Shown piece after piece: positions 11,050 to 32,587 of a stretch of DNA of 56,566 nucleotides; the stretch's first letter is position 1; every line of letters begins with the position of its first letter. The stretch comes from Clostridium rhizosphaerae (GTDB lineage Bacteria > Bacillota > Clostridia > Clostridiales > Clostridiaceae). The translations under genes were made by a program, and so were the position numbers. Location: positions 1 to 56,566 of the forward strand of contig NZ_JAESWC010000025.1 in assembly GCF_016765585.1 (NCBI RefSeq). Direction: 5' to 3'. The notes beneath the pieces were generated by a model that was not told the DNA's origin, did no database searches, and worked only from the letters and a program-made list of their open reading frames with translations.

Positions 11050-11141
11050 TTTGTAGTGCTAGGGGCGCCTTATGGCTGAGAGAAGTTTATAACTTTAACC
11101 CTTCGAACCTGATGCGGGTAAAACCGACGTAGGAAAGCTGT
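11050..11141 (+). ncRNA. TPP riboswitch (THI-box)
   Basis: The aptamer signature is unmistakable: AGGGGCGCC, then GGCTGAGAGAAG, ACCCTTCGAACCTGATGCGG, GTAAAACCGACGTAGGAAA. CTGAGA and the CUGAUGCGGGU segment are the invariant thiamine-pyrophosphate contacts. It lies upstream of a thiamine-uptake operon, so bound TPP should shut the operon off through the terminator immediately downstream. Edges are approximate. Confidence 0.96.
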
Positions 11142-11158
11142 TTAGATATTAGTATCCT

Positions 11159-30654: not shown

Positions 30655-30909
30655 ATGGAAAAATTATTTTGTCAAAGCTGCGGAATGCCAATGAATGAGG
30701 AGGTTCTGGGTACAAACACCGACGGAACTAAAAATACCGAGTATTGTATTTACTGCTACAAGGAAGGTGCATTTACTTCTCCTAATGCTACTTTGGAGCA
30801 AATGATTGAGGAATGCGTTCCATTCATGAAGGAGAACGGCATGGAAGAAGCTGAAGCAAGAAGACTATTAAACGAGCAGCTTCCAAAGCTTAAGAGATGG
30901 TCGAAATAA
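30655..30909 (+). CDS. Zinc-ribbon protein (Zn_ribbon_2-like)
   Basis: An 84-residue protein. FCQSCGMPM and EYCIYCYKEGAF supply four cysteines as CxxC...CxxC, matching the small putative zinc-ribbon family often found beside YafY-type regulators. A C-terminal helical region (LEQMIEECVPFMKENGMEEA) ends in LPKLKRW. The function is unknown; a regulator's partner or quencher-like protein is possible. ATG 30655 follows AGGGAGG. It ends just upstream of the cysS leader and is not co-directional with its attenuator. Confidence 0.82.
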   Translation: MEKLFCQSCGMPMNEEVLGTNTDGTKNTEYCIYCYKEGAFTSPNATLEQMIEECVPFMKENGMEEAEARRLLNEQLPKLKRWSK

Positions 30910-30936: not shown

Positions 30937-30966
30937 TGTACATTTTCCTGAAAGATGGTATATAAT
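30937..30966 (+). promoter_or_regulatory. SigmaA-type promoter of the cysS leader
   Basis: TGTACA (30937-30942), 18-bp spacer, TATAAT (30961-30966). Transcription would start near 30973, a few bases before the strong ribosome binding site of the leader peptide. Confidence 0.65.
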
Positions 30967-30998
30967 GTGTATATATCATTTAGAGGAGGTCAATCAAA

Positions 30999-31082
30999 AT
31001 GAAATGCTGTTGCTGTTGTTATTTAACTAATTTAATATTAGTAAGTTTAAATAGCAACAAGTCTGCAATTTTATTGAGATAG
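30999..31082 (+). CDS. Poly-cysteine leader peptide of cysS
   Basis: A 27-residue frame with GAGGAGGT (30983-30990) eight bases before ATG 30999. It begins MKCCCCCYLTNLILVSLNSN, with five consecutive Cys codons at 31005-31019, and ends at TAG 31080-31082. It lies directly upstream of a terminator and the cysteinyl-tRNA synthetase gene. The composition and position match classical amino-acid leader peptides such as TrpL or HisL, where the ribosome stalls when the charged tRNA is scarce. The peptide itself probably has no function. Confidence 0.82.
   Translation: MKCCCCCYLTNLILVSLNSNKSAILLR
31014..31059 (+). promoter_or_regulatory. Leader hairpin pairing the Cys codons with the downstream strand
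   Basis: 31014-31026 (TGTTGTTATTTAA) pairs with 31047-31059 (TTTAAATAGCAAC region) over 13 bp with one G-U. The first strand covers the last two Cys codons plus Tyr and Leu. The second strand's last base is the first of the antiterminator segment. A ribosome stalled on the Cys codons would prevent this hairpin. Confidence 0.7.
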
Positions 31083-31125
31083 CCTTATAAGTTTAATTTT
31101 AATTAGCATTATAAGCTGCAGGTTT
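31059..31125 (+). promoter_or_regulatory. Candidate antiterminator pairing
   Basis: AAGTCTGCA (31059-31067) can pair with TGCAGGTTT (31117-31125), nine pairs including two wobbles. It competes with the terminator because it uses the same CTGCAGG strand. The 31059-31067 segment lies inside the leader ORF near its stop, so a ribosome completing the peptide would cover it. Another hairpin, AGCCTTATAA with TTATAAGCT, lies between. Confidence 0.55.
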
Positions 31126-31147
31126 TTGCCTGCAGTTTTTATTTTTT
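31113..31147 (+). terminator. Attenuator terminator upstream of cysS
   Basis: CTGCAGG (31116-31122) pairs with CCTGCAG (31129-31135) around TTTTTG, extended by AAG/TTT, with a long T tail (TTTTTATTTTTT). It lies 28 bases before the cysS start codon and must be bypassed for cysS expression. Confidence 0.92.
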
Positions 31148-31174
31148 GTTAAGAAAGATAGGGAGGTAATATTA

Positions 31175-32587
31175 ATGAAGTTTTCGGTTTATAACACGTT
31201 AACTGGAAAGAAGGAAGAAATAATACCAGTAGAAGAAGGGAAAGTAAGACTTTATACCTGTGGACCTACAGTATACAATTATGCGCATATAGGAAACCTA
31301 CGAACCTATATTTTTGAAGATGTTCTTAAAAAGTCATTAGAGTATATAGGCTTTGAAGTAAAGCACGCCATGAATATCACTGATGTGGGACACTTGGAGT
31401 CCGATTCAGACAGCGGTGAGGATAAGATGGCCTTAGGCGCAAGCAGAGAAAAGAAAACAGTATGGGAAATTGCAAGGTTTTATGAGGAAGCTTTTTTGAA
31501 GGATTGCGAGCTTTTAAATATAAAAAGACCTTATGTTGTGTGCAGAGCCACAGAACATATTGAAGATATGATTAAGTTTATACAATTGCTTGAGCAAAAA
31601 GGCTTTACTTATATAGCCAACGGTAATGTATATTTTTCTATTGAAAAGTTCCCTGACTATACTAAGCTTGCAAACCTAAGCATAGACGAACTTAAGGCAG
31701 GAAGCAGGGTTGAGGTTGATCCTCATAAGAAAAATCCAATGGATTTTGTACTTTGGTTTACAAACTCAAAATTTAGTAATCAAATAATGCAGTGGGAATC
31801 ACCTTGGGGCAAAGGATTTCCGGGATGGCATATCGAATGTTCAGCAATGTCAATGAAGTATCTCGGTGACAGAATAGACATACACTGCGGAGGTGTTGAC
31901 CATATACCTGTGCACCATACAAATGAGATAGCACAATCAGAAAGTGCTGTAGGACATAAATGGGTAAACTATTGGATGCATGGTGAATTTTTAGTGTTTG
32001 ATAACGGCAAAATGTCAAAATCAAACGGAGGTTTCTTAACTGTTTCAAAGCTTATTGAAAAAGGCTTTAGTCCATTAGATTACAGATATTTTTGCCTTCA
32101 GTCTAAATACAAGAAACAATTAGTTTTTAGCTTTGAAAGTTTAAAAGAGGCTCAAAAGTCGTTCAGTAGACTAAAAAGCAAAATTAAAGGAATACTGGAG
32201 AGTAAAAATGCTGAAGATATGCTTAATGAAGATAACATTAAGAGCTACCAAGCTAAGTTTGCTGAGCAAATAAGTGATGATTTGAATATAGCAAATGCGT
32301 TTACAATATTATCAGAGGTTATAAAGGATGAGGCTTTAAATAATTCCGAAAAGGTATATTTAATTGAAGATTTTGATAGGGTATTTTCTCTGAACTTAAC
32401 CGAAATTAATAATGCAAATGAAAATTTAAGCGTTGATGATACTTATATTAATAATCTTATCCAGGAGAGAAATCAAGCTAGAAAAGAAAAAAACTGGGCT
32501 AGAGCAGATGAAATTAGAAATATTCTTTTAGATCAGAATATTGAACTTATCGATTCAAAAGAAGGCACTGCTTGGAAGGGAAAATAA
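31175..32587 (+). CDS. cysS: Cysteinyl-tRNA synthetase
   Basis: A 470-residue class I synthetase that charges tRNA-Cys. The zinc ligand Cys29 and HIGH-type AHIGN (His38) appear in YTCGPTVYNYAHIGN. GWHIECSAMSMKYLG contains another zinc cysteine, HCGGVDHIPVHHTNE follows, and the KMSKS loop is GKMSKSNGG near residue 279. The C-terminal DALR-like and anticodon-binding helices follow, ending RADEIRNILL and DSKEGTAWKG. ATG 31175 follows GGGAGG. Expression is probably controlled by the leader peptide and attenuator upstream instead of a T-box. Confidence 0.97.
   Translation: MKFSVYNTLTGKKEEIIPVEEGKVRLYTCGPTVYNYAHIGNLRTYIFEDVLKKSLEYIGFEVKHAMNITDVGHLESDSDSGEDKMALGASREKKTVWEIARFYEEAFLKDCELLNIKRPYVVCRATEHIEDMIKFIQLLEQKGFTYIANGNVYFSIEKFPDYTKLANLSIDELKAGSRVEVDPHKKNPMDFVLWFTNSKFSNQIMQWESPWGKGFPGWHIECSAMSMKYLGDRIDIHCGGVDHIPVHHTNEIAQSESAVGHKWVNYWMHGEFLVFDNGKMSKSNGGFLTVSKLIEKGFSPLDYRYFCLQSKYKKQLVFSFESLKEAQKSFSRLKSKIKGILESKNAEDMLNEDNIKSYQAKFAEQISDDLNIANAFTILSEVIKDEALNNSEKVYLIEDFDRVFSLNLTEINNANENLSVDDTYINNLIQERNQARKEKNWARADEIRNILLDQNIELIDSKEGTAWKGK

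Follow-up and report, generated by a model that had tools for sequence, protein, structure and literature searches.

Why should a cysteinyl-tRNA synthetase (CysRS) gene in a T-box-rich clostridial genome be preceded by a short ORF with five Cys codons in a row and a transcription terminator, and what does this leader control? We addressed this question by sequence analysis of the 56,566-nucleotide stretch of Clostridium rhizosphaerae DNA (contig NZ_JAESWC010000025.1), hereafter called the window, in which the gene lies. Taken together, the data described below make it very probable that a ribosome-mediated transcription attenuator, sensing the charging of Cys-tRNA, controls a reserve CysRS gene.

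The elements of the leader all lie on the + strand and are given in window coordinates. An upstream Zn-ribbon gene ends at 30909, and the ATG of cysS is at 31175. Between them, the promoter proposed by the first-pass annotation is present as a sigma-A-type match, TGTACA-18-TATAAT (30937..30966, with TATAAT at 30961-30966), that agrees with the consensus at 10 of 12 bases; however, the promoter scan gave 2 matches against 1.8 expected by chance, and the match is therefore no evidence by itself. A Shine-Dalgarno sequence, GAGGAGGT (30983..30990), which has similar counterparts in the aligned relatives, precedes the leader ORF MKCCCCCYLTNLILVSLNSNKSAILLR (30999..31082), a frame of 27 codons that starts with ATG at 30999 and stops with TAG at 31080-31082. 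Five consecutive Cys codons, TGC TGT TGC TGT TGT (31005..31019), constitute the proposed stall site. They are followed by a segment that we call strand 2 (31047..31067) and by an intrinsic terminator hairpin (strands 3:4; 31113..31138) of 11 bp with a loop of 4 and a T tail, which is kept in 16 aligned leaders. The terminator scan found this one hairpin against 0.0 (sd 0.2) expected, which is beyond chance. The 27-residue ORF with its five Cys codons and the T-tailed terminator just before cysS, as originally described, were thus read directly. We examined 45 distinct TGYx4 runs in the genome; that of the leader alone falls in a short ORF (≤60 codons) with a Shine-Dalgarno match. Elsewhere in the window, a TPP riboswitch at 11051-11152 (+) exceeded its gathering score.

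The gene that follows the leader (31175..32587, 470 aa) passed the general cysS model TIGR00435 with 489.7 and 490.1 bits in two scans (cut-off 340). Its best-scoring model was NF011108/PRK14536, yet the score of 641.8 bits was under the curated cut-off of 780. The HIGN and KMSKS motifs are present, as seen in two alignments, and so are the Cys, Cys, His and Glu residues at the positions of the zinc ligands of E. coli CysRS. Among solved structures, 3sp1 is nearest by sequence. Two full-length cysS genes are present in the genome. The other one, on contig C16, scored 608.6 bits to TIGR00435 and, as read from its raw sequence, lies in what we presume to be an ispD-cysS-mrnC-thyX-rlmB-like cluster. 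Judged by these profile scores and alignments, the window gene is the second copy and not the housekeeping one; we call it cysS2 and take it to be of spirochaete type, a label drawn from its relatives. A cysS2 match at E 1e-150 or better was observed in 55 of the 194 family genomes sampled. Three other listed genomes of the same genus were without cysS2 and had only the other cysS.

To see how far the leader is conserved, relatives were gathered by a peptide-pattern plus tblastn search (53 named loci) and from whole genomes, and deduplicated to 88 loci. The counts exclude rows L052 and L067, in which the gene start is missing, row L068, which is the window itself, and loci shared by the two collections. 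A Shine-Dalgarno-led Cys-run leader with a terminator was present at 27 of the 88 distinct cysS loci, 24 from Clostridia and 3 from alphaproteobacterial metagenome-assembled genomes (MAGs). These are the window, 20 more family genomes, Lutispora saccharofermentans (L015), Tepidibacter (L032), Peptostreptococcaceae (L034) and the MAGs L053, L055 and L056. The terminator finder marked the hairpin in 21 of the 27; those of L032, L092, L130, L133, L135 and L141, as well as the first hairpin of L074, were picked by eye. The leader was absent from the other 61 loci, one of which, in genome G035, has a displaced leader (see below). On the CysRS tree, the leader required 10 changes compared to 23.4 with shuffled labels (0 of 500 shuffles as low). 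Its distribution is clustered, with repeated loss or gain, and the three alphaproteobacterial rows stand apart on the tree; their leaders reflect either independent origin or far transfer. The terminator before cysS in these three gut MAGs has another core, GGCAGC.

Terminators also occur without the Cys run. In genus g25, where cysS2 was the only cysS matched, a terminator persists within 150 nt upstream of cysS2 at 15 other loci (for example L086) that have no Cys-run ORF, and G098 keeps both; L082 likewise has a terminator and no Cys-run leader before cysS2. G094 and G123 each have an additional cysS2-type copy (L170, L171), which has no Cys-run leader. In eight leaders (L032, L034, L074, L075, L147, L148, L150 and L152), inspection by eye showed the first terminator to be followed by another hairpin that has a T-rich tail.

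We folded the leader of the window and obtained a minimum energy of -47.6 kcal/mol (z = -4.46). A 13-bp pairing of 31014-31026 with 31047-31059, as initially proposed, can be drawn with one G-U pair, but the fold prefers another register, 31008-31017 (strand 1) with 31050-31059, as part of a longer stem, and the duplex computation agrees. Lying inside the Cys codons, this 1:2 register would suit an attenuation model better than the earlier one. Strand 2 can alternatively pair with the left arm of the terminator: the 9-bp antiterminator noted earlier, 31059-31067 with 31117-31125, is present with two G-U pairs and, continued across one bulge into 31054-31057 with 31126-31129, reaches 13 bp, so that 31054-31067 engages the left arm and loop (31117-31129). 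In the window alone, this 2:3 pairing was not better than in shuffled sequences (p 0.14-0.18, and p 0.635 with a shorter arm), and its support comes from the relatives.

Once the whole terminator is transcribed, its fold (-22.7 kcal/mol) is more stable than the antiterminator (about -10 kcal/mol, computed with the right arm blocked), and antitermination must therefore be kinetic. Two stall positions were tried. The minimum-energy fold contained the antiterminator only for a ribosome at the last Cys codon, and that for a ribosome at the first Cys codon was without it. In the ribosome-free fold, the leader Shine-Dalgarno (30986-30990) is paired with GCCTT at the stop codon (31082-31086), and CCTT or CCT recurs at the stop-codon position in close relatives. 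Such sequestration, predicted by folding, may hold the leader to few rounds of translation.

Among the 24 clostridial loci, the 2:3 pairing had a mean energy of -12.18 kcal/mol compared to -7.78 for shuffled sequences (0 of 200 sets as low). When strands were swapped among these loci the mean was -9.98 (0 of 5000 as low, kinship not corrected for), and with 21 dereplicated loci 3 of 5000 swaps were as low. Individually, 17 of the 24 loci reached p ≤0.05; the window is outside these (0.14, and 0.175 and 0.18 in two other sets). The 1:2 pairing of the Cys run with strand 2 was also stronger than in shuffles (-14.43 vs -10.56, 0 of 200), while 66 of 5000 swaps, and 171 of 5000 after dereplication, were as low, again uncorrected for kinship. 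The first-pass annotation had staked its reading on conservation of the Cys run and of the alternative pairing in relatives, and both were found, the former at 27 of 88 loci and the latter above shuffles in the 24 Clostridia.

We also folded partial transcripts with the polymerase just past the terminator loop and the ribosome-covered RNA hidden, and counted pairs of the terminator left arm with any upstream base. A ribosome placed at the last Cys codon left at least 5 such expected pairs in all 27 leaders (mean 10.8). For a ribosome at the stop codon the figure was 14 of 27 (mean 4.8), and without a ribosome it was 15 of 27 (mean 6.1). In the alignment of 16 leaders, the antiterminator was paired in 82.7% of cells (23-39% for slid versions) and the terminator in 92.5%. 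The covariation score of the antiterminator was 0.296 vs at most 0.159 for slid versions. Two of five covariation measures beat the shuffles (3 and 6 of 500 as high), and the other three were not above them (405, 296 and 254 of 500 as high). In the shared left arm, three sequences change U to C, with G as both partners, and two change G to A, with U as both partners. These changes are supportive but not decisive, because these columns often hold G-U pairs.

The Cys run is also one strand of a stem that beats shuffles, and it could be asked whether the TGY repeat is a mere RNA strand of a riboswitch-like switch controlled by a protein or metabolite, with translation of the ORF being irrelevant. 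Exactly one TGC among TGT codons in 19 of 27 runs suggests a constraint at the RNA level, as such a switch would have. The reading frame, however, argues against it. We found 29 (TGY)3+ runs on the coding strand of the 88 upstream regions and 1 on the other strand. A Shine-Dalgarno-led start puts 27 of the 29 in frame as Cys codons, although for 11 of these 27 another frame also has a lax Shine-Dalgarno-led start; of the two left over, one is an additional run in L015 and the other is in the leaderless relative L095. The ORF and its Shine-Dalgarno are kept, moreover, while tail length and peptide vary. No Rfam family reached its gathering score in the leader stretch, the best sub-threshold match being L20_leader (22 bits vs 58.7), and the consensus fold of the 16 leaders recovered the terminator alone. 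We consider a translation-independent switch improbable, although it is the strongest of the alternatives.

Classical attenuation in the manner of trp and his, the reading initially put forward, is instead supported by the conservation of the leader, the pairing statistics and the absence of a T-box. We infer that the ribosome would follow RNA polymerase along the leader. If Cys-tRNA is short, it would stall on the Cys codons and occupy strand 1, leaving strand 2 free to pair with the left arm of the terminator before the right arm is made, and transcription would read through into cysS2. With ample Cys-tRNA, the ribosome would reach the stop codon and mask, or have already passed, strand 2, and the terminator would form. 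By the usual footprint, a ribosome at the TAG would mask just a part of 31059-31067, so the earlier claim that it covers this segment would hold partly. In a leader that is left untranslated, the 1:2 pairing would likewise favor the terminator.

Stalling might also be a property of the peptide, if nascent MKCCCCC... itself arrests the ribosome, for example on sensing thiol redox or metal instead of Cys-tRNA. Metal binding or oxidation of Cys runs is conceivable, and CysRS is a zinc enzyme, which fits such a sensor. The leaders are nevertheless variable: the number of Cys residues is 3-6, the first Cys codon lies at position 2-8, some runs are interrupted, and the remainder of the peptide differs among clades. 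The downstream gene, moreover, encodes CysRS, which replenishes the very charged tRNA called for by the run. We regard peptide arrest as slightly less probable still than the translation-independent switch, and the attenuator reading Cys-tRNA as the preferred explanation.

A covariance model was built from the 16 aligned leaders and used to search other genomes. It gave 20 matches in the 194 family genomes, 18 of them directly upstream of cysS2; 13 of the 20 matched genomes had given sequences to the model. It is very unlikely that the hairpin merely ends transcription of the Zn-ribbon gene upstream and that the short ORF arose by chance: the Zn-ribbon gene is on the same strand and the promoter match in between is no better than chance, but leader, terminator and cysS occur together in 27 loci, Alphaproteobacteria included, and the model leads to cysS2 in nearly all of its family matches.

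One of the other two family matches, in G035 (L191 / L198), is a leader ∼4 kb upstream of cysS2, with recombinase-like genes, which we take to be Tn554-like, in between. This cysS2, cut off from its own leader, is an open natural experiment on expression. The other, a weak match (45.2 bits) at L197 (G054:C1), lacks a Cys-run ORF and precedes a gene that resembles, by eye, an ABC transporter; a 34-codon ORF after an AGGAGGT-like site, then a hairpin, lie before this gene. In 391 class genomes, the model found the window and three weak matches (41.8-43.8 bits) without a Cys-run ORF. The idea that the leader serves other genes was thus not borne out by the weak matches in the 391 class and 194 family genomes. 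Absence of a model match elsewhere is weak evidence, because under the strict filters three known leaders, in G013, in G014 and at the G054 cysS2 locus, go undetected. In another family of the class, L176 and L178 have a GCCGCAGG hairpin before an ABC transporter-like gene, and a leader ORF, MNRTRYFGLVISLNRPPVFII, was picked by eye in L176; from its sequence, this leader looks like another attenuator, not based on Cys.

The first-pass annotation had seen no T-box at cysS, and the T-box covariance model (RF00230) indeed had no match upstream of the window cysS2. In the genome as a whole, with 150 of 182 first-look candidates scored, there were 23 matches: 20 exceeded the cut-off, 2 fell slightly short of it and 1 was a fragment. 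For the 22 full-length matches, the first downstream ORF of at least 130 codons was taken as the target, lysS and hisS being outside this examination. By best NCBIfam model, 18 of the 22 precede aminoacyl-tRNA synthetase genes: leuS, proS, valS, pheS, gltX, asnS, thrS (two), aspS, argS (two), tyrS, alaS, trpS, serS, metG, glyS and ileS. Many of these score under the whole-protein cut-off because the scan took in no more than 300 residues. The remaining four targets are cysK, a gene resembling cystathionine gamma-lyase, a symporter (best models far below cut-off) and a small protein without assignment. Each copy of thrS (C27:19975, C12:1247506) and of argS (C10:581996, C1:56916) has its own T-box match. 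Neither the housekeeping cysS nor the window copy is among the 22 targets from the candidates scored. The earlier suggestion that the leader replaces a T-box is too simple, as the housekeeping cysS also lacks a match and 18 other synthetase genes have one. A T-box scan of 20 cysS loci gave three matches: those in L060 and L061 are ∼700 nt upstream of the matched cysS and that in L062 is downstream of it.

As cysS2 comes in addition to another CysRS gene, the switch would bring in a second enzyme only if the normal supply of Cys-tRNA fails. We asked whether the leader is tied to the presence of the housekeeping gene (cysS1). It was found in 18 of 29 genomes with cysS1 and in 3 of 26 without it (Fisher p 2e-4), counts in which G035 was classed as leaderless before the model search found its leader displaced by an insertion. 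The tie was demoted to a trend, because the tree gives 4 (starred branches) to 7 independent contrasts, with which a sign test cannot reach 0.05. This split suits a reserve role, though it is not independent of kinship. It is possible, and we propose it tentatively, that leader and cysS2 form a dedicated failure switch: a horizontally spread, spirochaete-type CysRS would stay silent until the housekeeping CysRS or the cysteine supply fails (through an inhibitor, metal or oxidative damage, or starvation), and the switch would tend to be dismantled where cysS2 is the sole CysRS. Its origin would lie in a lineage whose aminoacyl-tRNA synthetase genes are otherwise left to T-boxes, with a further origin in gut Alphaproteobacteria.

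The proposed device can be set against two familiar ones. Enterobacterial attenuators of the trp, his and pheST type have a regulatory codon run, alternative 1:2, 2:3 and 3:4 stems and a terminator; the cysS2 leader likewise combines a codon run, such alternative stems and a terminator, and differs in amino acid, gene and lineage. The T-box (RF00230) resembles it in having tRNA charging as its input and terminator read-through before Firmicutes aminoacyl-tRNA synthetase genes as its output, but a T-box binds uncharged tRNA directly, without translation. The genome would offer a natural side-by-side of two RNA sensing solutions, uncharged tRNA bound directly and charged tRNA read by the ribosome. 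The intact, displaced and decayed leaders form a graded series for asking why a T-box or an attenuator is kept.

A 2005 comparative paper states that classical attenuation governs no aminoacyl-tRNA synthetase gene of Firmicutes (PMC1262725), and the leaders at the 24 clostridial loci, that of the window included, are strong candidates for an exception. The main text of a 2024 survey of 50 genomes contains no word starting with 'cys' and no 'tRNA synthetase' (PMC11109978). We found no report of a clostridial Cys-run cysS leader in open-access full texts, a scope that leaves most subscription journals outside. Among the closest described cases is uORFC-8-2 upstream of Rhodobacterales cysS, for which Cys-codon attenuation has been proposed: it is a Cys-codon uORF before cysS with an intrinsic terminator and proposed stalling on low Cys-tRNA (PMC8632094). 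It belongs to another phylum and has two tandem Cys codons, usually at 14 and 15 (PMC8632094). The clostridial leaders, on the other hand, have runs of 3-6 Cys from codon 2-8, and that of the window serves a second cysS in a T-box-rich Firmicute.

Cys-run leader ORFs are also described for actinobacterial cys operons and related genes, where a short ORF likewise carries the run and attenuation by cysteine availability is reported for M. smegmatis (PMC1262725, PMC4633059; Canestrari et al. 2020 via PMC9031893). The actinobacterial run is near the stop codon and there is no conserved terminator hairpin (PMC1262725), and the ORFs are leaderless and precede sulfur and cysteine metabolism genes (PMC1262725, PMC4633059, PMC9031893). 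The clostridial leader, in contrast, is Shine-Dalgarno-led, has its run near the start, is followed by an intrinsic terminator and precedes an aminoacyl-tRNA synthetase gene. The mechanism is therefore of a known kind; what is new, as far as our searches show, is that it occurs in this lineage, at this copy of the gene and in a T-box setting.
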